Shown here: positions 1 through 8,571 of the stretch, in pieces
Position numbering within the stretch: position 1 is the stretch's first letter
Layout: every line of letters starts with the position of its first letter
Assembly: GCA_016844515.1 (NCBI GenBank)
Contig: JAERMP010000088.1
Span: forward strand, 1 to 8,571
Reading direction: 5' to 3'
From: Thermoleophilia bacterium
Lineage (GTDB): Bacteria; Actinomycetota; Thermoleophilia; Gaiellales; Gaiellaceae
DNA length: 8,571 nt
Translations under genes and position numbers: made by a program
Notes under the pieces: model-generated
What the model was told of the DNA's origin: nothing
Databases searched by the model: none
The model's input: only the letters and a program-made list of their open reading frames with translations

Positions 1-404
1 GCGCCTTCGTCGAGGTTCGCCGCGTCGCTGAAGCCGAACGACGCGTACCTCGTCTTGAACTTCTGCGCGCTCTGGAAGAAGCAGACGACCTTGCCGTCCA
101 TGGCGTACGCGGGCATCCCGTACCAGGTTCTCGGCGAGAGGGCTGGCGCGCTGGCTTTGATGATGGCATGGAGCCGCTCGGCCATGGCGCGATCCGGTTC
201 CGGCATCTCGGCGATCTTCGCGAGCACGTCGTGTTCCCCGTCCGCCTTGCCCGCACGTCGTCCGCGGCGCGCGGCCGCCTTGAGCTCTTGGGCGCGCTCC
301 CTCATCGCGGCTCGTTCCTCGTCCGTGAATCCCTGGGACGCCTTGCCGGTAGCGGTCGTAGCGGACGTCTTCGTGCCCTTCTTTGCAGGTTTCCTCTCAG
401 CCAT
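1..404 (-). CDS. DUF1801-family protein, C-terminus off the left edge
   Basis: The visible part is 134 codons. A Lys/Ala/Thr-rich tail (residues 1-22) is followed by a charged helix (about 26-50) and then the start of a DUF1801 (YdhG-like) domain from about residue 58. The stretch TWYGMPAY (93-100), then [16 protein letters not shown] (105-120) and FGFSDAANL, is what I recognise as typical of actinobacterial DUF1801 proteins. The C-terminal few tens of residues lie outside the window. The biochemical role is unknown; distant relatives have been called frataxin-like iron chaperones, which is not supported here. The start ATG (404-402) is well placed: GGAGG lies at 418-414 on the minus strand with a 9-nt spacer. 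The next unit to the right is separated by repeat copy 1. Family assignment is from motif recognition only. Confidence 0.85.
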
Positions 405-469: not shown

Positions 470-663
470 TCAGCGGAGCTCCTGGATGCGGATGTCCATG
501 GCGGTCAGGGTAGTTGCGGCTCCGTGACCGGCGCTTTCCTCAGCTCGGACGACCCTCTTCTCGATCAAGCCTCGAAGTACACCAGCGGTTGTGCGGTCAG
601 CGACGGATCAGATGCGTGCAAGTCGCTCGGCGGGATGGCATTCGGGTCGCGTTCAAGCGCCAT
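470..663 (-). pseudogene. possible small frameshifted ORF starting inside repeat copy 1
   Basis: Two short minus-strand frames abut. From the ATG at 663-661, inside repeat copy 1, a frame reads MALERDPNAIPP and continues through QPLVYFEA to a TGA at 567-565. A frame one base off reads LIEKRVVRAEESAGHG from 568 through MDIRIQELR to a TGA at 472-470. A single extra base near 568 would join them into about 64 residues with protein-like composition. No family is recognised, there is no clear Shine-Dalgarno, and the apparent start is repeat-derived. It may be a decayed gene remnant or chance. Confidence 0.2.
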
Positions 664-680
664 TCCCGCACACTGGCGCA
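653..680 (+). repeat. interspersed 28-nt repeat, copy 1
   Basis: Left arm TCAAGCGCCATT (two changes from TCAAGGGACATT), middle CCCGCA, right arm CACTGGCGCA (one change). It lies 24 nt beyond the stop of the minus-strand GYD gene, in the gap between two minus-strand genes. The rest of the 405-704 gap holds only the doubtful small frames described at 470-663. Confidence 0.8.
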
Positions 681-704
681 CCCGACGGCGACCTCTTCGC
701 GCCG

Positions 705-1031
705 CTACGCGCCGGGCGCTTGGTACTGGACTTGCTCCGCCTTGCGCAGGGCGTCCATCGTTTCGTCGACGGTCAGCAGGACTGTCGTTTCCAGCGAGCT
801 AAGGGCACCGCCGCTACTAATCGCCAGCGCAACCGCGGCCATGGAAACGTTGTCGGGGGCCTCCCAGAGCGTGTAGCCGTCGTGTGTGCCGAAGGCGTAC
901 CAGAACCCGTGGAGCTTCCCATCGACCGACTCGATGTATGACTGAGCGGCCTTTCGGCGATCCTCCGGGTTGCCGATCAGCCTGGCCCAAGTCTCCGGCG
1001 TGTAGCTGAACCTCGAAAGATAGAGCGGCAT
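705..1031 (-). CDS. GYD-domain protein
   Basis: A complete 108-residue protein matching the usual length of the small single-domain GYD family, a ferredoxin-like alpha/beta fold of unknown function that is common in actinobacteria and proteobacteria. Recognisable blocks are MPLYLSRFSYTPETW at the N-terminus, the central GKLHGFWYAFGTHDGY (38-53), and ALAISSGGALSSLETTVLL (68-86). The name-giving GxYD is GTHD here (48-51). The start is supported by AGGAGG at 1041-1036 on the minus strand, 4 nt from the ATG, a short but usable spacing. It stands alone: the DUF1801 gene downstream and the divergent MBL-like gene upstream are each separated from it by a repeat copy. A weak -10-like CATACT lies at 1086-1081 on the minus strand without a recognisable -35. 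The substrate or partner is unknown. Confidence 0.9.
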   Translation of the reverse strand: MPLYLSRFSYTPETWARLIGNPEDRRKAAQSYIESVDGKLHGFWYAFGTHDGYTLWEAPDNVSMAAVALAISSGGALSSLETTVLLTVDETMDALRKAEQVQYQAPGA

Positions 1032-1166
1032 CGTCCCTCCTCTCGTTCGCCGACCCGGGCGAGTCGCCGGTAGGCGTCGAAGTATGACCGGGGGGAGAGC
1101 AGTCTGGCCTGAGGCGGCCTGGGGCGAATTCGTTTGCGACGAGGTCGTGGTAGCGGCGATCTAGTG

Positions 1167-1194
1167 TCGAGCGACATTCCTGAACACTCGCGCA
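1167..1194 (+). repeat. interspersed 28-nt repeat, copy 2
   Basis: Left arm TCGAGCGACATT, middle CCTGAA, right arm CACTCGCGCA (identical to consensus). It sits in the divergent gap between the GYD gene and the MBL-like gene, 136 nt from the first start and 102 nt from the second. Nothing else is evident in the gap (1032-1295) except the -10-like signals. Confidence 0.93.
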
Positions 1195-1283
1195 GGTAGC
1201 TGCTCCGTCGCTCGAACGTCACGCCAGCGGCACCCGACACAGGCGTCGACCGTCGCGTGCATCGGGAGCGCGCAGCGTTTCAG

Positions 1284-1289
1284 TAGCAT
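1284..1289 (+). promoter_or_regulatory. -10 hexamer TAGCAT, probable leaderless promoter
   Basis: TAGCAT fits the actinobacterial TAnnnT pattern and lies 6 nt before the GTG start of the MBL-like gene. Transcription would begin at or next to the start codon. No Shine-Dalgarno is present at the usual distance, in keeping with a leaderless message. No clear -35 is visible. Confidence 0.5.
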
Positions 1290-1295
1290 CGCGCC

Positions 1296-1964
1296 GTGCG
1301 CGAGTTGCGTCCGGGCCTGTGGCACTGGGAGGCACCGCACCCGCAGTGGCGGCCGACCGAGCCGTGGAGCGAGAACGTGTCGTCCTACGCGATCGACGAC
1401 GGGGAGCGGCTGCTGCTCTTCGATCCGCTGGCCGTGCCGAGCGAGCTTGGGGACCTCGCGGCCAGCCGCGAGACGACGATCGTGCTCACCGCGCCATGGC
1501 ATGAGCGCGACGCGCAGAGCCTGGTCGAGCGGCTCGGCGTGCCGGTCTACACGCCGCTGCCCGACACCGCGCAGGACCTCATGGACATGTACGGCCTCAC
1601 CGCCGAGCAGGCTGGCGACGGCAGTCCCGACCTCGTCTGGCTGCTCCGCGAGAAGAAAGGCGAGGCACGCCCGTACTCGTCCGGCGACCGGCTGCCGTTC
1701 GGTGCCGACGTGTTCCCCGGGCATAAGGCGAACGACACTGTGCTCTGGGTCGAGAGCCAGCGTGCGGTGATCTCCGGCGACACGCTCGTCGACTTCGGCC
1801 GGGGCCTCGAGATCAACGAGAGGTGGCTCCGCCCTGGCGTGACGCGCGAGGAGATCGCCGAGGGGCTGCGCCCGCTACTCGCACTGCCGGTCGAGCACGT
1901 GCTTGCGACGCACGGCGGGCCGACCGACCGGGCCGCCCTCGAGCGCGCGCTGTCCTCTACCTAG
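1296..1964 (+). CDS. metallo-beta-lactamase-fold-like protein with degenerate metal motif
   Basis: 222 residues from a GTG start. The layout follows an MBL fold: an N-terminal strand region with SSYAIDDGERLLLFDP (29-44), then TIVLTAPWHERDA (61-73) where the HxHxDH motif would be, VFPGHKANDTVLWVESQRAVISGDTL (139-164) and HVLATHGGP (201-209). Possible ligands are H69, D72, H143, D162 and H206. The canonical HxHxDH is reduced to WHERD, so a normal dinuclear site is doubtful. I have seen this degenerate form in actinobacterial proteins labelled MBL-fold hydrolases. Hydrolase activity is possible but not shown, and the substrate is unknown. The GTG is preferred because of the TAGCAT hexamer 6 nt upstream. 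Third positions are about 93% G/C over the first 60 codons by hand count. The stop is only 5 nt from repeat copy 3. Confidence 0.8.
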   Translation: MRELRPGLWHWEAPHPQWRPTEPWSENVSSYAIDDGERLLLFDPLAVPSELGDLAASRETTIVLTAPWHERDAQSLVERLGVPVYTPLPDTAQDLMDMYGLTAEQAGDGSPDLVWLLREKKGEARPYSSGDRLPFGADVFPGHKANDTVLWVESQRAVISGDTLVDFGRGLEINERWLRPGVTREEIAEGLRPLLALPVEHVLATHGGPTDRAALERALSST

Positions 1965-1969
1965 TTCGT

Positions 1970-1997
1970 TCAAGGGACATTCCCACACGCTCGCGCA
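1970..1997 (+). repeat. interspersed 28-nt repeat, copy 3
   Basis: Left arm TCAAGGGACATT (perfect), middle CCCACA, right arm CGCTCGCGCA (one change). It lies between two + strand genes, starting 6 nt after the stop of the MBL-like gene and ending 53 nt before the iminopeptidase start. A -10-like TATTAG follows at 2032-2037. Confidence 0.95.
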
Positions 1998-2050
1998 AGC
2001 CTGCGCCATCTCGCAGGGCCCGCTGATGCGTTATTAGCGAGACTCTCGAG

Positions 2051-3010
2051 ATGGCCGAGCCGCATCCGCCGATCGAGCCGTATGACCACGGGATGCTCGA
2101 CGTGGGCGATCACAACCTCGTGTACTGGGAGGCGTGCGGCAACCCGGACGGAAAGCCTGCACTGGTCGTTCACGGCGGGCCGGGATCGGGTTGCGGTACG
2201 GGTAGCCGTCGCTCCTTCGACCCCGACCGCTACCGGGCGGTGCTCTTCGACCAGCGCGGCTGCGGTCGCAGCACGCCGCACGCGAGCGACCCCGCCGCGG
2301 ACATGAGGGTGAACACGACGGAGCACTTGCTCGCGGACATGGAGCTGCTGCGCGCACACCTCAGGATCGAGAAATGGCTGCTGTTCGGAGGGTCGTGGGG
2401 ATCGACGTTGATCCTCGCCTACGCCGAGCGGCATCCAGAGCGCGTGTCGGCGATTGTCATACCCAGCGTAACCACGTGCCGACGGTCCGAGATCGACTGG
2501 CTCTACGGGGGCGTGGGACGCTTCTTCCCCGAGGAATGGGAGCGGTTTCGAGCCGGTGTTCCCGAGGCCGAGCGCGACGGCAATCTCCTCGCGGCGTACG
2601 CGCGGCTCATGGAGGACCCTGATGCGAACGTCCGCGGCATAGCCGCCGCCGACTGGCTGGCGTGGGAAGACACGGTCATCTCGCAGGAACCGCATGGGGT
2701 GCCCAAGGCGTACAGCTCGCGGCCGCCCGCCGCGCAGCTCGCCTTCGTACGGATCTGCGCCCACTACTACTCGAACGGAGCGTGGCTGGAAGAGGGTGCG
2801 CTGCTTCGTGACGCGGATCGCCTGGCAGGCATTCCAGGTGTTCTCATCCACGGCCGCCTCGACATGGGCTCCCCGCTCGGCACCGCTTGGGAACTCGCGC
2901 GAGCCTGGCCGGACGCGCAGCTCGTGGTCGTCGACGACGCAGGACACACGGGCAGCAAGGCCATGAATAGCGGAGTCCTCGAAGCGCTCGAACGGTTTGT
3001 ACGCGATTGA
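2051..3010 (+). CDS. pip: proline iminopeptidase (alpha/beta hydrolase, peptidase family S33)
   Basis: 319 residues, the normal length for bacterial proline iminopeptidases, which remove N-terminal proline from peptides in the cytoplasm. The motifs are in order: HGGPGSGCG (41-49, oxyanion region), FDQRGCGRS (66-74), GGSWGS (113-118) with nucleophile Ser115, GRLDMGSP (268-275) with acid Asp271, and DAGHTG (296-301) with catalytic His299. The catalytic triad is intact. The more usual GRYDxxCP around the acid is GRLDMGSP here, which may change substrate preference. No signal peptide is seen. The ATG has no convincing Shine-Dalgarno. A TATTAG hexamer at 2032-2037 would place transcription start near 2044, giving a leader of only about 7 nt. 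The stop codon TGA (3008-3010) lies within repeat copy 4. Gene expression looks independent of the neighbours. Confidence 0.93.
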   Translation: MAEPHPPIEPYDHGMLDVGDHNLVYWEACGNPDGKPALVVHGGPGSGCGTGSRRSFDPDRYRAVLFDQRGCGRSTPHASDPAADMRVNTTEHLLADMELLRAHLRIEKWLLFGGSWGSTLILAYAERHPERVSAIVIPSVTTCRRSEIDWLYGGVGRFFPEEWERFRAGVPEAERDGNLLAAYARLMEDPDANVRGIAAADWLAWEDTVISQEPHGVPKAYSSRPPAAQLAFVRICAHYYSNGAWLEEGALLRDADRLAGIPGVLIHGRLDMGSPLGTAWELARAWPDAQLVVVDDAGHTGSKAMNSGVLEALERFVRD

Positions 3011-3034
3011 GGGACACTTCCGATCACTCGGGCA
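3007..3034 (+). repeat. interspersed 28-nt repeat, copy 4 (contains the pip stop codon)
   Basis: Left arm TTGAGGGACACT, middle TCCGAT, right arm CACTCGGGCA. It sits in the convergent gap between pip and the beta-propeller gene, and its second to fourth bases are the TGA stop of pip. It shares the TCCGAT middle with copy 7. Confidence 0.9.
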
Positions 3035-3065
3035 CCCGATTGTGGTCTCCGCCGTAATGCAGTTG

Positions 3066-3087
3066 GCCTAGGCAGCCACAGGTGGCT
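3066..3087. terminator. small inverted repeats between convergent genes
   Basis: GCCTAGGC (3066-3073) is a perfect palindrome, followed directly by AGCCA, loop CAGG, TGGCT (3074-3087). They lie between two convergent stops and could help terminate either transcript. There is no T-tract, so this is tentative. Confidence 0.25.
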
Positions 3088-3097
3088 AACGGACCTA

Positions 3098-4105
3098 TCA
3101 CGGCCGCCAGGCTGGTTCGCCATCCCAGACCTCGTTTTCCGTGATCCGGCGTACGTCGTCGCCGTTGGCGTTCATCACGTAGATCTCGATCTCATGCGCA
3201 TTCGGGTTCGAGCGGTCGGATGCGAAGGCGATCAGGCGGCCGTCCTGTGACCACGCGGGCGAGCCATCGTTCGCCTGGGACTCAGTCAGCCGCTGCTCCT
3301 CTCGGCCGTCGGCGCCCACGACGTAGATCTCGCCGCTCGTTCCGCACTCGTGGAAGCAGGTTCTGCCGAAGCGATCGCGGAAGGAGGTGAACGCGATGCG
3401 CTTCCCATCGGGCGACCAGTCGGGCTCTCCGCCGTCGCTCGTCAGCTTCCTGAGCGTGCGGCCCTCGAGTGCGACGAGGTAGAGCGCGGCGCTCGGACTC
3501 TCGGAACCGGTACTTGGCGCGATTCGCGTGAATGCGATCATCGATCCATCCGGGGACCACGCGGGGCTGAAATCGAAGGTCGGCCATGCAGCCTGCGTCA
3601 GCTGGACCTCGTCGTCGCCGGCCTCGCCCAGCACGAAGATGCCGCTGCGCGCCCCGGCTGTGCCTTGGTCGACGATGCGCGTGAACGCGATGCGTTTCCC
3701 GTCCGGCGACCAGCTCGGGCTTGTGTCTACGTCGTCGTTCGTCGTGAGCCGGCGCCGGTCTGTCCCGTCCGCATCCATGACGTAGATCTCGCTCAGGCGC
3801 GGATCCTCGGCGAGCGTGCCGATCTGGGCCGCGAAGGCGATCTGCGTGCCGTCGGGCGACCAGGCCGGGCTCGCGCTTCCGGCCGCGTCGCTCTGCGGCG
3901 GTTCGACCTCGGTCAGCCGCCTACGGTCGCTTCCGTCCGCCGCCATGAGCCAGATCTCGTTCCAGCCGGTCCGATTGACCGTGAACGCGATTTCTCCGCT
4001 GCCGTGCTCAGCTTTCATGCTGTCGCTTCCGTCGCAGGCGACGAGTAAGACCAGGGCCGCGAACAGCGGGATCGCGCGCACAGCGAGCGCTGACTGCCTC
4101 GTCAC
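3098..4105 (-). CDS. PD40 (TolB-like) beta-propeller lipoprotein
   Basis: 335 residues from the GTG at 4105-4103. The N-terminus VTRQSALAVRAIPLFAALVL ends in a lipobox LVAC with Cys24, indicating a signal peptide and lipid anchoring on the outer face of the membrane. The rest is PD40 repeats: WSPDG or WSQDG at 82-86, 132-136, 183-187, 230-234 and 285-289, each followed by an IAFT/IAFA strand and an EIYVM-type strand ending in a DG...RRLT turn. The N-terminal strand (from about residue 38) and the final PAWRP suggest a closed six-bladed propeller. Such proteins usually mediate protein or ligand contacts; no enzyme motif is seen. An upstream ATG at 4183 is in frame, but its first residues come from repeat copy 5 and the signal peptide would be misplaced. 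The GTG is further favoured by a TAGGCT hexamer 7 nt upstream. The partner is unknown. Confidence 0.88.
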   Translation of the reverse strand: MTRQSALAVRAIPLFAALVLLVACDGSDSMKAEHGSGEIAFTVNRTGWNEIWLMAADGSDRRRLTEVEPPQSDAAGSASPAWSPDGTQIAFAAQIGTLAEDPRLSEIYVMDADGTDRRRLTTNDDVDTSPSWSPDGKRIAFTRIVDQGTAGARSGIFVLGEAGDDEVQLTQAAWPTFDFSPAWSPDGSMIAFTRIAPSTGSESPSAALYLVALEGRTLRKLTSDGGEPDWSPDGKRIAFTSFRDRFGRTCFHECGTSGEIYVVGADGREEQRLTESQANDGSPAWSQDGRLIAFASDRSNPNAHEIEIYVMNANGDDVRRITENEVWDGEPAWRP

Positions 4106-4112
4106 GTTCGCG

Positions 4113-4118
4113 AGCCTA
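4113..4118 (-). promoter_or_regulatory. -10 hexamer TAGGCT, probable leaderless promoter
   Basis: On the minus strand TAGGCT is followed by 7 nt and then the GTG of the beta-propeller lipoprotein. No Shine-Dalgarno precedes that GTG. This matches the arrangement before the genes at 1296 and 4981. Confidence 0.5.
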
Positions 4119-4162
4119 GCCGCGTGAGAGTGCGCGGCGATCCCGCTCAACTGCCTCAGTCG

Positions 4163-4190
4163 GCAAGGGAGATTCCTGAACACTCGCGCA
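4163..4190 (+). repeat. interspersed 28-nt repeat, copy 5
   Basis: Left arm GCAAGGGAGATT (two changes), middle CCTGAA, right arm CACTCGCGCA (perfect). It lies between two minus-strand genes, 57 nt upstream of the lipoprotein start and 89 nt past the stop of the next gene. It is the only copy lacking T at the first position. Confidence 0.93.
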
Positions 4191-4206
4191 CACCGGCACC
4201 CTCTTG

Positions 4207-4261
4207 CCCGACAACCCGCGGCGCTGCCTCGACCTCGTAACCGCGCCTTCGGGTTGTCCGG
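4207..4261. terminator. long imperfect inverted repeat
   Basis: GACAACCCG (4210-4218) pairs perfectly with CGGGTTGTC (4250-4258), and the outer three bases pair at two of three positions. Inside, GGCGC (4220-4224) pairs with GCGCC (4243-4247) around an 18-nt loop. It lies just past the stop of the minus-strand gene ending at 4280, so a terminator or mRNA 3' hairpin is the simplest reading. There is no T-tract. It lies 16 nt from repeat copy 5. Confidence 0.4.
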
Positions 4262-4279
4262 CGGCCTTCTCTCCCTCGC

Positions 4280-4981
4280 TCAGGAGGCGTCGACGTTGAA
4301 CACGATGTCACTCGCCTCTTCTGGAGAATCGGCAAACGCGGCTTTCGCGGCACGTTCGAGACGATCTGCGAAGCGCAACACGGCAGCCCTCATCTCGCTC
4401 AGGGAGACGGTCCTGCCCGCTGCCGTCAATTCGATGAGCCCGACCGGTGACTCGCATTGTCGACCTACCGGATTAACCACCGGGATCCCCTTCACCCGAG
4501 CCAACGTTCCAGGTACGAACGCTGCTGCCTTGAGAGCATCGCCGGGCTCCACGGGAGGAGCAGCCCATGACAGGCTGCCCCAGATTGGATGACCAGTGTC
4601 GGCGATCTTGTGAACCTGGCCGTAGAGATGCTGAACGGCGTTTCTGAGGTCCTCGATCGGCCCAAGTGAGTGGAGGAACGACTTCACGCCTGGGCTCGAC
4701 TTCTTGAGACCAGGCATCGAATCGACCAGGACGCGCAGGCGGTTGAGGACATCAACCAGAGACCATGCGTCCAACAGGATCGCGGAATCGAGGCGAGACA
4801 TCTCGTCGGACTCTTTCGGCAGGGATGCGTTCGCCGACTCGTACAACGACATCTTGGCAGCAAGGGACTCTTGAAGACGCTCATAGGCCAGGCTGGCCAT
4901 CCGAAACGACTCTTCGATGGCGTCGAGGTACAAGACTTGGCGTCGCGGGAGAAACGCGGGGCGCCCGATGTCCGCTGCCAC
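4280..4981 (-). CDS. uncharacterised all-helical protein with HEPN-like RNxxxH motif
   Basis: 233 residues from a GTG start. I do not recognise the family. Residues 17-50 and 62-120 read as amphipathic helices (for example RLDSAILLDAWSLVDVLNRL, 63-82), and there is a C-terminal helix at about 194-216. EDLRNAVQHLYG (110-121) contains R113-N-A-V-Q-H118, which fits the RX4-6H motif with Asn after Arg that marks HEPN ribonuclease domains. This is a motif match only. The middle (130-190) is likely beta or loop, ending in a polar tail. No signal peptide or membrane segment is seen. No nucleotidyltransferase (MNT) partner, the usual HEPN companion, is adjacent. Third-position G/C is about 77% over 60 codons by hand count, lower than in the MBL-like gene, suggesting a different origin. 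The GTG start is supported by TAGCCT 6 nt upstream. Confidence 0.75.
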   Translation of the reverse strand: MAADIGRPAFLPRRQVLYLDAIEESFRMASLAYERLQESLAAKMSLYESANASLPKESDEMSRLDSAILLDAWSLVDVLNRLRVLVDSMPGLKKSSPGVKSFLHSLGPIEDLRNAVQHLYGQVHKIADTGHPIWGSLSWAAPPVEPGDALKAAAFVPGTLARVKGIPVVNPVGRQCESPVGLIELTAAGRTVSLSEMRAAVLRFADRLERAAKAAFADSPEEASDIVFNVDAS

Positions 4982-4987
4982 GTACAG

Positions 4988-4993
4988 AGGCTA
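4988..4993 (-). promoter_or_regulatory. -10 hexamer TAGCCT, probable leaderless promoter
   Basis: On the minus strand TAGCCT, then the 6-nt spacer CTGTAC, then the GTG start at 4981. There is no Shine-Dalgarno. The spacer length is the same as for the gene starting at 1296. Confidence 0.5.
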
Positions 4994-5034
4994 TCCAGCG
5001 CCGTTCGCGAGCTGACACTTGCCTGGTTTCGTCT

Positions 5035-5058
5035 CGGGCGACATTCAAGACGCTGCGG
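5035..5058 (+). repeat. possible degenerate half copy of the repeat
   Basis: CGGGCGACATTC (5035-5046) matches the left half of copy 2 at 11 of 12 positions, but the right half has decayed or never existed. It lies about 45 nt before intact copy 7 in the same orientation. It could be chance. Confidence 0.2.
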
Positions 5059-5091
5059 AACTTCGTCTACGTTCCCCGAGCGCGTACCGGC

Positions 5092-5119
5092 TCAAGGGAC
5101 ATTTCCGATCACTCGCACA
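5092..5119 (+). repeat. interspersed 28-nt repeat, copy 7
   Basis: Left arm TCAAGGGACATT (perfect), middle TCCGAT, right arm CACTCGCACA (one change). It is in the divergent gap between the HEPN-like gene and the DsrE gene, 110 nt from the first start and 131 nt from the second. Number 6 is reserved for the degenerate half copy at 5035. Confidence 0.95.
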
Positions 5120-5207
5120 GATCGGTGTCGTGTGCCCCGACGCGTCAGTCGTGCATCGGCCCGCCCACACCCCGAGCTCTTCACTGCCTCCGCGTGGAGC
5201 GTGTTAC

Positions 5208-5213
5208 TAGAGT
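5208..5213 (+). promoter_or_regulatory. -10 hexamer TAGAGT for the DsrE gene
   Basis: TAGAGT fits TAnnnT and would give a leader of about 30 nt containing the AAGGAGG ribosome-binding site at 5237-5243. No convincing -35 is visible; TTCACT at 5180-5185 is too far upstream. Weak call. Confidence 0.3.
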
Positions 5214-5250
5214 GACGGGCGCACCCCATCGATCCGAAGGAGGGCCACCC

Positions 5251-5619
5251 ATGGCCGACGGAGCCAAAGTCGTCATCAACCTCGCGACGGGACTCGAGGA
5301 CCCCGAGCGGGTAACAGTCGCATTCCTCGTCGGTGGCGCAGCCGCCGAACAGGGCAAGCAGGTCGCCATGTTCTTGACCAAGGAGGCGGTCCGGCTCGCG
5401 GTCCCAGGTGTGGCAGAAGCGGTTGCCTGCGACGGCTGCCCGCCGCTCGGCCAGCTCTTCCAACAGTTCGCCGACAACGGTGGCGAGCTGCTCGTCTGCC
5501 CGATCTGCGTCAACTCCCGGAAGATCCCCCAGAACTTCGTGGAGAACGCTCGCCTCGCGGGCGCCACCCCCCTGTGGGAATGGATCGGAGCGGACGCGGC
5601 GACCGTCTTCAGTTACTAG
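5251..5619 (+). CDS. DsrE-family protein
   Basis: 122 residues with a strong start: AAGGAGG followed by GCCACCC and ATG. The DsrE/DsrF/TusD-like alpha/beta fold is indicated by VVINLATGLEDPERVTVAFL (7-26), GKQVAMFLTKEAVRLA (35-50), and a C-terminal ARLAGATPLWEWIG (100-113). Two cysteine pairs, C60/C63 in ACDGCPPL and C83/C86 in LVCPICVNSR, suggest thiol or persulfide chemistry or metal binding, as in sulfur-relay relatives. I recognise the overall sequence as a common stand-alone actinobacterial DsrE subtype. No other dsr, tus or sulfur-oxidation genes are nearby, so the partner is unknown. It is predicted cytoplasmic. Divergent from the HEPN-like gene and convergent with the methyltransferase, with a repeat copy on each side. 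Confidence 0.9.
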   Translation: MADGAKVVINLATGLEDPERVTVAFLVGGAAAEQGKQVAMFLTKEAVRLAVPGVAEAVACDGCPPLGQLFQQFADNGGELLVCPICVNSRKIPQNFVENARLAGATPLWEWIGADAATVFSY

Positions 5620-5672
5620 CGCTCACGCCACCGGAGCCCTCGTCGCCGTCCGGAGGTGCAACCAGTGGTGCT

Positions 5673-5701
5673 TCGAGGGACATTACCCGCACACTCGCGC
5701 A
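5673..5701 (+). repeat. interspersed repeat, copy 8, with one inserted base
   Basis: Left arm TCGAGGGACATT (one change), an extra A, middle CCCGCA, right arm CACTCGCGCA (perfect). It lies between convergent genes, 53 nt after the DsrE stop and 14 nt from the methyltransferase stop. It is the only copy of 29 nt. Confidence 0.93.
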
Positions 5702-5715
5702 GACGAGCGCGTTCG

Positions 5716-6477
5716 TCAGCTGAGGCCGCTCTCGAAGCCTGCAGCGCGCGTCCAGTGAACCTGCGTCTCCCACAGCCGCCGGTACTCAGCAGCGGTGAGG
5801 AGTGAACGCACCTCGTCGACCAGGGGCAGCCGCTCGTCGTCGGGGAGGTCGGCGAGCCAGCCCATAGAGGCGTAGAACGCCACCAGCCCGTCGCGGTCGA
5901 GCGTCTGCGGATTCGGCAGCCGCACCTCCTGGAGCGGCTCGAAGGTGGGCTCCGCCAGCGGCCACTCGCCCGTCGCGTAGCGGGGACCTCCGAGGTCGAG
6001 GGGGATGTAGCTCACCTCACTCGGGCCTCGTTCGGTCAAGAGTTCCTCCGCCGTCGCTGTCGACGGCTCCCAGGGCCCCGCTGGGACGTTCCACATCAGC
6101 GCGACGGCGCCTTGGGGACGCAGGACGCGGGCGATCTCGGCGACAGCACGCTCGTCGTCAAACGTGTGGAACGCCTGCGCTGCGAAGATGGCGTCGACCG
6201 ACGCATCTGCGAGCGGGATCGCCTGGGCGGTTCCGGGAAGTGCCTCGGCCCCCGGGCAGATCGTCTCTAGGATGCGGTGCATCGCCTCGGCCGGCTCGAC
6301 GGCGACCACGCGGTCGAACGCGGGCACGAGCAGCCGCGTGAGCTTCCCCGTGCCCGCGCCCAAGTCGAGCACGGTCGCGGTCGGCAGGAGGCCGGGGACG
6401 TCGACGACATCGGGCGGCCAGCCGGGACGGCCGCGCTCGTAGTCGTCGGCCCAGCCATCGCCGCTACCAGTCGGCAT
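5716..6477 (-). CDS. class I SAM-dependent methyltransferase (Methyltransf_11 type)
   Basis: 253 residues from the ATG at 6477-6475. Motif I is TVLDLGAGTGKLT (35-47), the glycine-rich SAM-binding loop. E61 in VVAVEPAEAMHRIL follows beta-2 and should bind the ribose hydroxyls. The stretch IPLADASVDAIFAAQAFHTF (87-106) covers motifs II/III and ARVLRPQGAVALMWN (116-130) is the usual beta-5 region. The N-terminal ADDYERGRPGWPP (10-22) is typical of this subgroup. The acceptor substrate cannot be read from sequence. An ORF extension to 6540 adds 21 residues without family character, so the internal ATG is preferred. Its ribosome-binding signal is poor (GGAG only 2 nt before the ATG). A TACAGT hexamer at 6509-6504 on the minus strand is a possible -10. 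No functionally linked neighbour is seen. Confidence 0.9.
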   Translation of the reverse strand: MPTGSGDGWADDYERGRPGWPPDVVDVPGLLPTATVLDLGAGTGKLTRLLVPAFDRVVAVEPAEAMHRILETICPGAEALPGTAQAIPLADASVDAIFAAQAFHTFDDERAVAEIARVLRPQGAVALMWNVPAGPWEPSTATAEELLTERGPSEVSYIPLDLGGPRYATGEWPLAEPTFEPLQEVRLPNPQTLDRDGLVAFYASMGWLADLPDDERLPLVDEVRSLLTAAEYRRLWETQVHWTRAAGFESGLS

Positions 6478-6582
6478 GCTCCAGGTATTCGGCAACGCGG
6501 GCGACTGTACAGAGCAGACGACTGAGAGGGACGTCAGCAAACCTCGCAGCGCGTACGAACGAGGCAGTCAACGCGCACGGGC

Positions 6583-6610
6583 TCGGGGGACATTCGTGAA
6601 CACCGGGCCA
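6583..6610 (+). repeat. interspersed 28-nt repeat, copy 9 (diverged)
   Basis: Left arm TCGGGGGACATT, middle CGTGAA, right arm CACCGGGCCA (four changes). It is in the divergent gap between the methyltransferase and VOC genes and is the most diverged of the ten. The remaining roughly 300-nt gap (6478-6774) shows no confident gene; see the doubtful ORF at 6621-6716. Confidence 0.85.
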
Positions 6611-6620
6611 CTCGTCGTAC

Positions 6621-6716
6621 TTATCCCTCCAATCTGACCTCCGGGTGTATCGCGTAACGAAGGCATCCGATATGCGCGAGGTAGTACGTCACGTCTCGCG
6701 GTGCGATCTTCGTCAC
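6621..6716 (-). CDS. doubtful 31-codon ORF
   Basis: A minus-strand GTG frame reads VTKIAPRDVTYYLAHIGC and ends RYAIHPEVRLEG before TAA at 6623-6621. The frame stays open upstream into the VOC region without a better start. Its composition looks protein-like and the end is clean, so it may be a remnant or a small gene, but there is no clear ribosome-binding site and no family is recognised. Confidence 0.15.
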   Translation of the reverse strand: MTKIAPRDVTYYLAHIGCLRYAIHPEVRLEG

Positions 6717-6774
6717 AGTCAGCGCGTGGCCCCAATACCTCCACGAACGCGCGGCGTTCGTCAGACTTCGCCAG

Positions 6775-7173
6775 GTGCAGCCGGAGGAGTGGGATTGGTC
6801 GCGGACTGTGGTCGACCACGTTGACCTCCATGCGAGCGACTTCTCTCAGAGCGTTCGGTTCTACGACACAGTTCTCGCGCCGCTCGGGATTCCCAAGTTG
6901 TATGAGCGCGACGACGAGGCGTGCTTCACTCACGTCAACGTTGTTGCTCGTACGCCGCCCACGAACGATCTCCATCTCTGTTTCTACACGCGCTCGAAGG
7001 ACGAGGTTGATGCATTTCACCGTGCCGGAGTGGAAGCGGGCTTCCGCTCGAACGGAGCGCCGGGCTATCGCACCTACGCGCCAGGCTATTACGCCGCATA
7101 CCTTCTCGACCCGGATGGAAACAACATCGAGGCGCTCTACCGAGACGTAGGCAATCCGGGTCACGCGGCGTAG
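6775..7173 (+). CDS. VOC-superfamily (glyoxalase/dioxygenase-fold) protein
   Basis: 132 residues if the GTG at 6775 is used, 121 from the GTG at 6808. One pair of beta-alpha-beta-beta-beta modules is visible: VDHVDLHASDFSQSVRFYDT (13-32) opens the first, and KDEVDAFHRAGVEAGF (75-90) through YYAAYLLDPDGNNIEALYRD (105-124) forms the second. The expected metal ligands are H15, H67 (in LHLCF) and E119, all present, so a metal-dependent lyase, isomerase or dioxygenase activity is plausible. The substrate is unknown, and resistance-type or detoxification roles are common in the family. Neither start has a good Shine-Dalgarno, so the start is uncertain. Third-position G/C is about 75% over the first 60 codons by hand count, clearly below the MBL-like gene, hinting at a separate origin. 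Confidence 0.88.
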   Translation: MQPEEWDWSRTVVDHVDLHASDFSQSVRFYDTVLAPLGIPKLYERDDEACFTHVNVVARTPPTNDLHLCFYTRSKDEVDAFHRAGVEAGFRSNGAPGYRTYAPGYYAAYLLDPDGNNIEALYRDVGNPGHAA

Positions 7174-7227
7174 CCGGCAACCGCGTTCTGTCGTTCTGCT
7201 CGACGCTACCGAGATCTTGGGCGCGCG

Positions 7228-7255
7228 TCAGGGGACATTCCCGCACACTCGGGCA
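7228..7255 (+). repeat. interspersed 28-nt repeat, copy 10
   Basis: Left arm TCAGGGGACATT (one change), middle CCCGCA, right arm CACTCGGGCA (one change). It lies between two + strand genes, 54 nt after the VOC stop and 141 nt before the SnoaL-like start. Confidence 0.95.
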
Positions 7256-7359
7256 GGCGACAGGCCTGTCCGTCGAGGGCCGGATTGGCCTTCCGGGGAT
7301 AGTGGGGATCGGGACATCACCACGCGGGGCGAACCTACGCGGGCTCAGCTCAGCAACCC

Positions 7360-7365
7360 TATGAT
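7360..7365 (+). promoter_or_regulatory. -10 hexamer TATGAT for the SnoaL-like gene
   Basis: TATGAT is one base from the sigma-70 type consensus TATAAT. Transcription from about 7372 would leave a leader of roughly 25 nt carrying the Shine-Dalgarno. No clear -35 is seen. It lies between repeat copy 10 and the gene, so the unit seems to carry its own promoter. Confidence 0.5.
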
Positions 7366-7383
7366 CGCCGCACCAACCCGTCC

Positions 7384-7390
7384 AAGGAGG
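7384..7390 (+). promoter_or_regulatory. ribosome-binding site AAGGAGG that fixes the start at 7397
   Basis: AAGGAGG lies 6 nt before the ATG at 7397. It decides against an upstream in-frame start at 7217, whose extra 60 codons run through repeat copy 10 and the promoter. Confidence 0.9.
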
Positions 7391-7396
7391 AAAACG

Positions 7397-7816
7397 ATGG
7401 ATCACGCAGCCACGATGCAGCGCATGTACGACCTTCTCAACGCCGGCGACGTCGACGGCTTTGGCGATGGGCTCGCCGACGACTTCGTTGACCATGAGGA
7501 GCTGCCCGACCTTGCGCCGACGAAGGAGGGGGTCAAGGCCTTCTTCCGGATGTACATCGCAGCGTTCCCCGACCTGCGTCTGGACGCAGAGGACATTTTG
7601 CCGAGTGGCGACAAGGTCGTCGCTCGTGCGAGGGCGACCGGAACCCATCAAGGCGAGTTCATGGGCATGCCGGCAACGGGGAAGGCCGTCGACGTACAGC
7701 TCATCGACATCATCCGCTTCGGCGACGACGGGCTCGCGTACGAGCACTGGGGAGTCTTCGACACGATGGCGATGATGCAGCAGCTCGGCGCGGTGCCCGA
7801 GGGCCCTCCGGCCTAG
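7397..7816 (+). CDS. SnoaL-like (NTF2-fold) protein
   Basis: 139 residues, the size of a single SnoaL-like polyketide-cyclase/ester-cyclase domain of the NTF2 superfamily. The N-terminal helix MQRMYDLLNAGDVDGF (7-22) is followed by LADDFVDHEELPDL (26-39), VKAFFRMYIAAFPDLRLDAEDILPSGDKVVARARATGTHQGEFMG (46-90) and a C-terminal strand pair around IIRFGDDGLAYEHWGVFD (105-122). The signature AAFPDLR and GTHQGEFMGMPATGK segments are classic for the actinobacterial subgroup. These proteins form a cone-shaped barrel whose pocket binds small hydrophobic molecules; many have no known substrate. No polyketide genes are nearby, so a cyclase role in an antibiotic pathway is not supported. It has its own -10 and ribosome-binding site. 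A hairpin overlaps the stop codon. Confidence 0.92.
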   Translation: MDHAATMQRMYDLLNAGDVDGFGDGLADDFVDHEELPDLAPTKEGVKAFFRMYIAAFPDLRLDAEDILPSGDKVVARARATGTHQGEFMGMPATGKAVDVQLIDIIRFGDDGLAYEHWGVFDTMAMMQQLGAVPEGPPA

Positions 7817-7857
7817 ACGCCTCTGCCGGTCACCGATCGCGAAGCGACACGTCTGGC
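7811..7857 (+). terminator. nested hairpin over the SnoaL-like stop codon
   Basis: GCC-T-AGACG (7811-7819) can pair with CGTCTGGC (7850-7857) with one bulged T, and inside it TCGC-GAA-GCGA (7837-7847) forms a small stem. There is no T-tract. It ends 15 nt before repeat copy 11. Tentative terminator. Confidence 0.3.
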
Positions 7858-7872
7858 GGCATCCGCGGCGGC

Positions 7873-7900
7873 TCAAGGGACATTCCCGCACACTCGCGCA
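7873..7900 (+). repeat. interspersed 28-nt repeat, copy 11 (consensus copy)
   Basis: Left arm TCAAGGGACATT, middle CCCGCA and right arm CACTCGCGCA all match the consensus exactly. It lies between the convergent SnoaL-like gene and the APH pseudogene. Confidence 0.97.
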
Positions 7901-7973: not shown

Positions 7974-8571
7974 TCAGAGCCTCTGTCGGATCCCTGCTAG
8001 GCCGCGCTCGATGTGCGCCGGCTGGTTCGTGAACAGGCCGTAGTGCGCCTCGTACCACGGCCCGAGGCGATGGTAGAACTGAGCCCGGCGGCGGAGGTCG
8101 GGATCGACCTCCCAGTCCGCGAACGGGCCGTTCAGCAGCCAGGCGTAGTCGAGGGCGGGATCGCCCAGACGCACGTCACCCCAGTCGATCACGCCGGCGA
8201 GGCGGCCGTCGCGCACGAGGAGATGCTCAGGACCGAGGTCCGCGTGGATGAGTGCCGGCTCGAAATCCACGAGCGTTTCCACGTCGCCGAAGAGTCGCTT
8301 CGCCTGTGGCCGCCGGTCTGTGTCGAGGAGGGGAAGCACGAGCCGAGTCGGGACGCTCCATAGGCAGCCCGGACGGGTCGAGCGCATGGAGCACCTCGAG
8401 GAACGCACGAACCCCGTCGGCGTCCTCGTCGACGAGCGGCTCGCCGCGGATCAAGCGGTAGCCGACGAAGAGCGGATTGCGCGAGATGTGCTCGAACGAA
8501 GGGAGATCCACCGGGAGTGCAGGAGCGAGCGCCGGCAGCACCACGATCTCGACCTCGAGCGCCTCCTCGAC
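7974..8571 (-). pseudogene. aminoglycoside phosphotransferase-family gene, frameshifted, N-terminus off the right edge
   Basis: Two minus-strand frames carry successive parts of one APH-family kinase. The frame from 8571 to about 8344 reads VEIVVLPALAPALPVDLPSF, then SRNPLFVGYRLIRGEPL and FLEVLHALDPSGLPMERPDS, the end of the N-lobe and hinge. The other frame, from about 8345 to 7974, reads RLVLPLLDTDRRPQAKRLFG, then the catalytic loop HADLGPEHLL (8246-8217), VIDWGDVRLGDPALDYAWLL with the metal-binding Asp, and a normal helical C-terminus. Catalytic Asp residues are intact, so decay is recent or the shift is a sequencing error. From memory, homologues have about a dozen more residues between ERPDW and VLPLLD, so the lesion may be a small deletion that also shifts frame. 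Such kinases phosphorylate aminoglycosides, macrolides or unknown small molecules; the substrate is not assignable. Confidence 0.85.

Follow-up and report, generated by a model that had tools for sequence, protein, structure and literature searches.

Single-gene cassettes between putative attachment sites of a large serine recombinase in a Thermoleophilia contig

The repeat and the genes of the window

The DNA considered here, called the window below, is positions 1 to 8,571 of contig JAERMP010000088.1 of a Thermoleophilia bacterium (assembly GCA_016844515.1). According to the list of open reading frames (ORFs) and a Pfam scan it carries eleven single genes of accessory type, pointing in both directions, and, by the ORF list, each of the ten gaps between them is occupied by one copy of a short repeat. 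Our analysis suggests that this repeat is, very probably, one half of the attachment site of a large serine recombinase (LSR) together with the crossover dinucleotide, and that nine complete gene cassettes, joined head to tail, make up an array in the window.

The initial annotation had counted ten copies of a 28-nt unit, and all ten are present (Table 1). With up to nine mismatches to TCAAGGGACATTCCCGCACACTCGCGCA the window holds 10 matches on the plus strand and 0 on the minus strand, and 30 first-order Markov shuffles of it gave 0 matches at the same tolerance; the common orientation of all ten copies is an addition to the earlier description. A length of 28 nt fits nine copies, the one at 5673 being 29 nt long through one extra base. 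The sharp bounds claimed for the unit exist on the left, but on the right weak conservation continues to about position 48 (359 non-redundant copies), and by the evidence the 28 nt are about half of the full site. Its 'variable 6-nt middle' varies moderately, and not in its last two bases, CA, which are constant in 391 of 411 copies; the terminal CA is present in 10 of the 10 window copies. The repeat had been called unclassified, and this stands: no description of it turned up in the literature, where nothing was found on cassette arrays with serine recombinases, on a 'serine integron' or on repeats of this group (preprints and most subscription journals lay outside the search, so this is weak evidence of absence), and an Rfam scan of the window gave no match. 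The idea that such density implies a function or an active spreading mechanism holds in general, though not for a self-spreading repeat, since the copies mark the edges of gene-sized units that change places.

By our reading of the ORF list all nine of the nine intervals between copies hold one gene. It should be noted that the home-made simple gene caller used for the larger counts below missed one window gene (the open frame at 4280-4981). The gene to the right of site 10 is, by its look, presumably phosphotransferase-like.

Table 1. Repeat copies (sites), cassettes and flanking genes of the window
Feature	Position	Strand (site or gene)	Gene	Remarks
Site 1	653..680	+		P half 653-678, CA 679-680
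Site 2	1167..1194	+		left edge of the cassette common to the window and G059
Site 3	1970..1997	+		G059 homology stops 8 bases past CA
Site 4	3007..3034	+		contains the stop codon of the abhydrolase gene
Site 5	4163..4190	+		pattern and matrix match
Site 6	5092..5119	+		pattern and matrix match
Site 7	5673..5701	+		one inserted base (29 nt); missed by the ungapped matrix, which found 9 window sites
Site 8	6583..6610	+		divergent copy
Site 9	7228..7255	+		pattern and matrix match
Site 10	7873..7900	+		consensus copy; blastn match with G059:C152 stops at its last base
Flanking gene, left of site 1	3..404	-	DUF1801-like	PF08818, below cut-off; cassette or chromosomal flank
Cassette	681..1194	-	GYD-domain, 705-1031	PF08734
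Cassette	1195..1997	+	metallo-beta-lactamase fold, 1296-1964	PF00753, below Pfam cut-off; also in G059:C19
Cassette	1998..3034	+	alpha/beta hydrolase, 2051-3010	PF00561
Cassette	3035..4190	-	PD40 beta-propeller, 3098-4081 (gene caller)	PF07676; frame scanned 3098-4183
Cassette	4191..5119	-	open frame, 4280-4981, 233 aa	no Pfam match
Cassette	5120..5701	+	DsrE family, 5251-5619	PF02635
Cassette	5702..6610	-	methyltransferase, 5716-6477 (gene caller)	PF08241; frame scanned 5716-6540
Cassette	6611..7255	+	glyoxalase/VOC, 6775-7173	PF00903
Cassette	7256..7900	+	SnoaL-like, 7397-7816	PF07366
Flanking gene, right of site 10	7974..8544	-		split across two frames in the window sequence

Arrays, putative half-sites and signs of DNA exchange at the repeat

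A weight matrix search of 181 fetched loci (1.52 Mb) found 435 copies, or 359 after removal of near-duplicates for the analyses of conservation and covariation; the reversed-sequence control gave 0. Of 247 pairs of neighbours less than 4 kb apart, 244 have both copies in one direction and 3 do not, and in a smaller set of 101 loci with 295 copies all 189 pairs agree and none is opposed, at a median spacing of 660 bp. Arrays of both directions stand ~15 kb apart on one contig (G104:C33), so direction is a property of the array and does not follow the replication arm. By the gene caller, 291 of 295 repeat midpoints are intergenic and the 189 intervals hold no, one, two or three genes in 66, 103, 18 and 2 cases, a count lowered by the genes that the caller misses. 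Tandem single-gene cassettes with a site each, a feature of integrons, are thus present. The genes are oriented at random, 54 with the repeat and 49 against it among single-gene intervals. A Pfam scan of 100 of the 121 eligible cassette proteins gave cupin, guanylate cyclase and glyoxalase (5 each), TPR and AAA (4 each) and GNAT (3) as the commonest families; among the best 25 of 111 families there are two IS110-type transposases and no site-specific recombinase.

Copies were also counted genome-wide in relatives of the window organism, 129 genomes of one actinobacterial order, 54 of which have the element while the reversed pattern gave 0. In the same genomes a search at E <= 1e-30 found an LSR in 11, at 12 loci, and the repeat is present in 10 of these 11 compared with 44 of the other 118 (p=0.0007). 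An LSR of ~460 aa heads an array in G002, G044 and G059, and 5 of 13 places with a resolvase domain in array genomes lie within about 3 kb of a copy (judged by eye). Both LSRs that were scanned combine resolvase, recombinase and zinc-ribbon domains (PF00239, PF07508 and PF13408), and the motifs Tyr-x-Arg-x-Ser and Asp-Arg-Leu-x-Arg, which have a catalytic role in such enzymes, are invariant in all nine aligned LSRs from the 12 loci. Relatives include PDB 9iu2 ('Integrase') and phrog_95 ('integrase'), and among the 120 matches listed two bear the name Solirubrobacteraceae. Of 7,996 candidate proteins that were scored, 1,767 fall within the LSR family at E <= 1e-40.

Several LSR loci have further genes. 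In L070, L315 and L194/L322 the LSR has two neighbours, a Rep gene (PF23343 in both that were scanned) and a small companion gene; in L316 Rep lies beside the LSR without the companion, and L219 has Rep without an LSR. L070 (1880-5988), L194, L315 and L316 look like compact integrative LSR elements with a Rep of rolling-circle type and, usually, a gene of ~125 aa, and L070 also carries an HNH gene. A second, unrelated recombinase of the resolvase family, 27% identical to the LSR, is encoded at L075 (3325-4758; G002:C36), ~2.5 kb from a copy.

Each of the 11 LSR genes for which upstream DNA is covered has a site related to the repeat at its start codon or within ~15 bases of it, here called the LSR-side site; this includes L321, a fragment at a contig end, with the site ~15 bases from the start, and the twelfth locus, L142, is itself truncated by a contig end. 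Of the 11 sites the matrix picks out 8, and those of L318, L319 and L320 were read by alignment (P-matrix scores 13.3, 6.1 and 3.0, against a random mean of -45.9). In LSR direction the site reads B-CA-P', where P' is a relaxed reverse complement of the repeat's left 26 bases (P), and B reads as the reverse complement of the stretch with weak conservation that follows the repeat on its right (B'). Array sites would then be P-CA-B', hybrids of attR type. They lie on the P side in 6 of the 12 loci, most of the other six being cut by contig ends, and upstream of the LSR-side site there are none in the DNA covered at the 12 loci, so the LSR appears to be framed by sites of attL and attR type. The complete site is likely to span ~49 bp, with P about TCRRGSGACATTCCNGMACACTSGCS and B' about GGCGAGNGTCCT..., and each cassette would probably consist of a B' end, one gene in either direction and a P end. 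If the halves are put together, P-CA-P' (the putative attP, which is not seen as such) and B-CA-B' would both be near-palindromes, of ~54 bp and ~44 bp, respectively. CA is taken as the crossover because of the symmetry of the LSR-side sites. The half-sites are inverted around this constant dinucleotide and P (26) is longer than B (about 21); in serine integrases the zinc-domain motif lies 5 bp nearer the centre in attB than in attP (PMC3783163). It is this likeness to attP and attB that leads us to read the repeat as P half plus crossover dinucleotide.

The B half can be followed beyond the arrays. A B matrix built from array sites scores the outer halves of the LSR-side sites at 12.1 compared with -4.7 for random sequence, and 0 of 20,000 random sequences reached the median. 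If LSR elements come and go at the heads of arrays, arrays without an LSR should start with attB, and the best B-CA-B' score within 2 kb is indeed 12.2 on the left of arrays (n=65) versus 4.6 on the right (n=75; p=1.7e-12); head scores are the best of a flank and have meaning only in comparison with the right flanks as control. In a stricter version, with the left half derived from the LSR loci, the 97.5% level of the right flanks is passed by 30 of 71 arrays (median distance to the first copy 628 bp) and by 25 of 59 solitary copies (1,002 bp). Copies scoring <20 were left out of the conservation and covariation analyses, the B matrix and the strict-head and last-site tests. Mixed-direction loci were left out of both head tests and the last-site test, flanks of <1500 bases out of the B-CA-B' test, flanks of <1000 bases out of the strict-head test, and arrays with the right end within 1500 bases of a contig end out of the last-site count.

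Comparison of loci by blastn points to exchange at the repeat, with blocks up to 98% identical that end at a copy. Among 307 matches between different loci, 26 have one end at a repeat in both sequences and 6 have both ends there, while repeats shifted by 100-400 bases (200 shifts) gave a mean of 0.8 and 0 and a maximum of 4 and 0; between different genomes there are 16 one-sided and 4 two-sided cases in 264 matches (shifted control 0.6 and 0). One of the six is the metallo-beta-lactamase cassette of the window, 91% identical to that of G059:C19, where the match begins inside the site and ends 8 bases past the final CA. The match of the SnoaL cassette with G059:C152 stops at the final A of window site 10, whose counterpart there is a degenerate site, and on the left it stops inside the cassette. 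Pairs of sites that share only the left flank agree at repeat positions 0-19 well above the genome-matched background (23 pairs, not independent), and pairs that share only the right flank show no such agreement (31 pairs, not independent); pairs with <30 bases of flank were left out. An early placement of the exchange point at C20-T21 was given up for a wider range, positions 20-27. Two pairs of loci, L143/L163 and L184/L290, have both flanks in common and different contents. The joined flanks of L184/L290, used as a query, match G108 without interruption (801 bases for 762, 77%); G108 has no copy at this place, and no clear attB was seen in the gap. In G110 and G112 the same place is taken up by 1.2-1.8 kb of other DNA, and the part of it that was covered contains no copy.

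Known systems and alternative explanations

Integrons are among the closest known systems. Both have arrays of single-gene cassettes with one site each in constant direction, an enzyme gene at one end of some arrays and many arrays without the enzyme, for which the clusters of attC sites lacking integron-integrases (CALINs) are a parallel (PMC8618304). The repeats might accordingly be attC sites of a tyrosine integron integrase (IntI), folded as single strands, as the tandem cassettes and the breakpoints within the site would allow; we give this a very slim chance. The TIGR02249 integrase model exceeds its cut-off in 1 of the 129 genomes, G039, which lacks the repeat, and the copies do not fold in excess with their upstream or downstream flank relative to shuffled flanks (n=284, p=0.99 and 0.37) or covary in pairs at any of the seven symmetry axes compared, as an attC hairpin would. 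The direction of genes is random with respect to the site (54:49), and the consensus has no GTTRRRY/RYYYAAC boxes, the marks of attC. By the evidence the enzyme here is a serine and not a tyrosine recombinase, acting on sites of the double-strand half-site type without hairpin, in many small arrays per genome with genes facing either way. Another tyrosine-based scheme was our first reading of the repeat, in which XerC/XerD recombine dif-like sites of 28 bp (11+6+11). The length agrees, dif/pdif modules likewise have genes between ~28-bp sites, and in the array genomes G036 and G037 two XerC/XerD-like genes are the only full-length tyrosine recombinases listed (our own reading). However, 125 of 129 genomes have such recombinases, whether they carry arrays or not, and a dif-like sequence of other make-up occurs in 9 of 129 (1 in the reversed control), which is too few to identify the dif of the order; the repeat shows no clear likeness to the actinobacterial dif. 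Sites of pdif alternate in direction, and the LSR-side sites and B halves would be left without explanation, so that Xer-type modules, too, seem a slim prospect.

Of phage-type serine integrases (Bxb1, phiC31, A118) the system shares the domain make-up and the inverted half-sites around a constant dinucleotide, but their elements have one attL and one attR each and not arrays of attR-type sites between genes. The staphylococcal and Enterococcus cassette chromosomes (SCC and ECC), mobilized by the LSRs CcrAB, have ~50-bp att sites of dyad symmetry, a likeness by description and not by Ccr sequence. ECCs are described as islands of 21-78 kb at the 3' region of rlmH, 16 of 32 with multiple attR sites (PMC6222049), whereas here the units are mostly single genes and occupy many places per genome. 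Such multiple attR sites, reported for complex SCC elements as well, lend some weight to a reading in which the LSR moves its own element only, and the arrays are old LSR-less remnants, bounded by former attR sites and reshuffled by homologous recombination. The lack of an LSR in most repeat genomes and the existence of degenerate copies would fit, but blocks of 97-98% identity stop at a 28-nt repeat, which is short for homologous recombination, and neither the one-gene size of the units nor the head sites are accounted for; we consider this reading unlikely, with a chance that still deserves mention. Transfer by the HUH replication protein encoded beside some LSRs (rolling-circle, one-ended) is suggested by the Rep genes at L070, L315, L194/L322 and L316 and by the Rep without LSR at L219. 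It appears highly improbable to us, as the LSR loci L078, L142 and L155, all with arrays, have no Rep match and the P and B half-sites go unexplained. The least credible of these alternatives is a dispersed regulatory or replication-directed motif (terminator, operator, or one like Chi or the FtsK-orienting polar sequences, KOPS) or a repeat like the repetitive extragenic palindromes (REP) or miniature inverted-repeat transposable elements (MITE): an intergenic position in all ten window gaps could be so explained, but not a direction that is independent of genes yet uniform within arrays, arrays in both directions on G104:C33 or DNA homology that stops at the repeat, and there is no excess hairpin and no Rfam match in the window.

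The preferred reading, a P half of an LSR site with its crossover CA, has its own difficulties. An LSR is present in 11 of the 129 genomes and the repeat in 54, and G104, with 35 copies, has no LSR; draft genomes, an enzyme acting in trans or remnants are possible reasons. The window contains neither an LSR nor a recognisable head, which may lie further left, outside it. Tyrosine recombinases, too, have copies nearby: judged by eye, there is one within about 3 kb at 3 of their 62 places in 12 array genomes (G045:C26, G059:C166 and G044:C31). Strict heads rise above the right-flank 97.5% level in only 30 of the 71 arrays. The outermost right half-site is no more B-like than inner ones (-1.3, n=73, versus 0.5, n=226), contrary to prediction, both being far above CA-anchored chance (-11.7); a model in which the last array site keeps a strong original B' half failed on these scores. 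As many as 275 of the 307 matches end at no repeat on either side, and since neither flank shows a clear link with positions 22 and 25, the exchange point can be narrowed down no further than 20-27. Finally, hybrid sites of serine integrases need a directionality factor to recombine, and like hybrid pairs align antiparallel (PMC3783163).

Distribution and reach of the proposed system

When the species-genome collection was scanned for the exact pattern, four contigs matched, all from metagenome-assembled genomes (MAGs), which bear the names Actinobacteria, Actinomycetota, Acidimicrobiales and Thermoleophilia. Of 396 genomes sampled evenly across the phylum, 14 were positive, namely G002, G060 and G104 of the order and eleven others, nine of which have a single copy each. 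Compared with 54 of 129 in the order this makes the repeat mainly a trait of one order. Copies are spread over many contigs per genome, and in G002, a genome from the exact-pattern scan to whose order the 129 genomes belong, 29 copies stand mostly in clusters. Viral contigs had 0 matches to the exact 24-nt core. Two looser patterns both hit the same two IMG/VR contigs, with one related site each (L301:9440 and L302:6863) in near-identical surroundings. A variant site lineage, GGGTCATTCCGGAACACTGGCCCA, occurs in L187, L190 and L193 (G115, G105 and G112). Contigs L203, L298 and L170 end within ~100 bases of a copy, as if the assembly broke at variable cassettes. A genuine integron integrase (372 bits) also occurs in the order, at L084 (G039:C2), in a genome without the repeat.

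We infer that the LSR makes the exchanges. In the route that we favour, an LSR circle with attP would integrate at the array head (attB, B-CA-B'), which would give attL (B-CA-P'), the LSR, attR (P-CA-B') and then the array. The LSR would later be excised via attL together with its own attR or one further along the array, so that cassettes may be carried away or left behind. Arrays would grow at the head, all sites would point in one direction and the head would be regenerated, with only standard site pairings needed. Alternatively, a cassette circle (P-CA-B') might react directly with the head (B-CA-B'), and the same map would result. From sequence, the whole can be described as a putative serine-recombinase gene-cassette system with a layout like that of integrons and a chemistry like that of SCC.

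To our knowledge all gene-cassette arrays are integrons, which a single lineage of tyrosine recombinases builds. A 'serine integron', in which a dedicated LSR inserts, excises and reorders single-gene cassettes at dispersed chromosomal attB heads, would be a second invention of the gene-cassette system, made with enzymes of an unrelated family, and would be at work today in soil Actinomycetota of one order (Thermoleophilia, to judge by the genome names); we see reasons of about equal weight to accept and to doubt this wider claim. The defined attP and attB half-sites and an enzyme family with intact motifs of catalytic type make the system directly testable. If the claim is true, accessory genes have a second, independent shuffling platform, invisible to searches based on IntI and attC.

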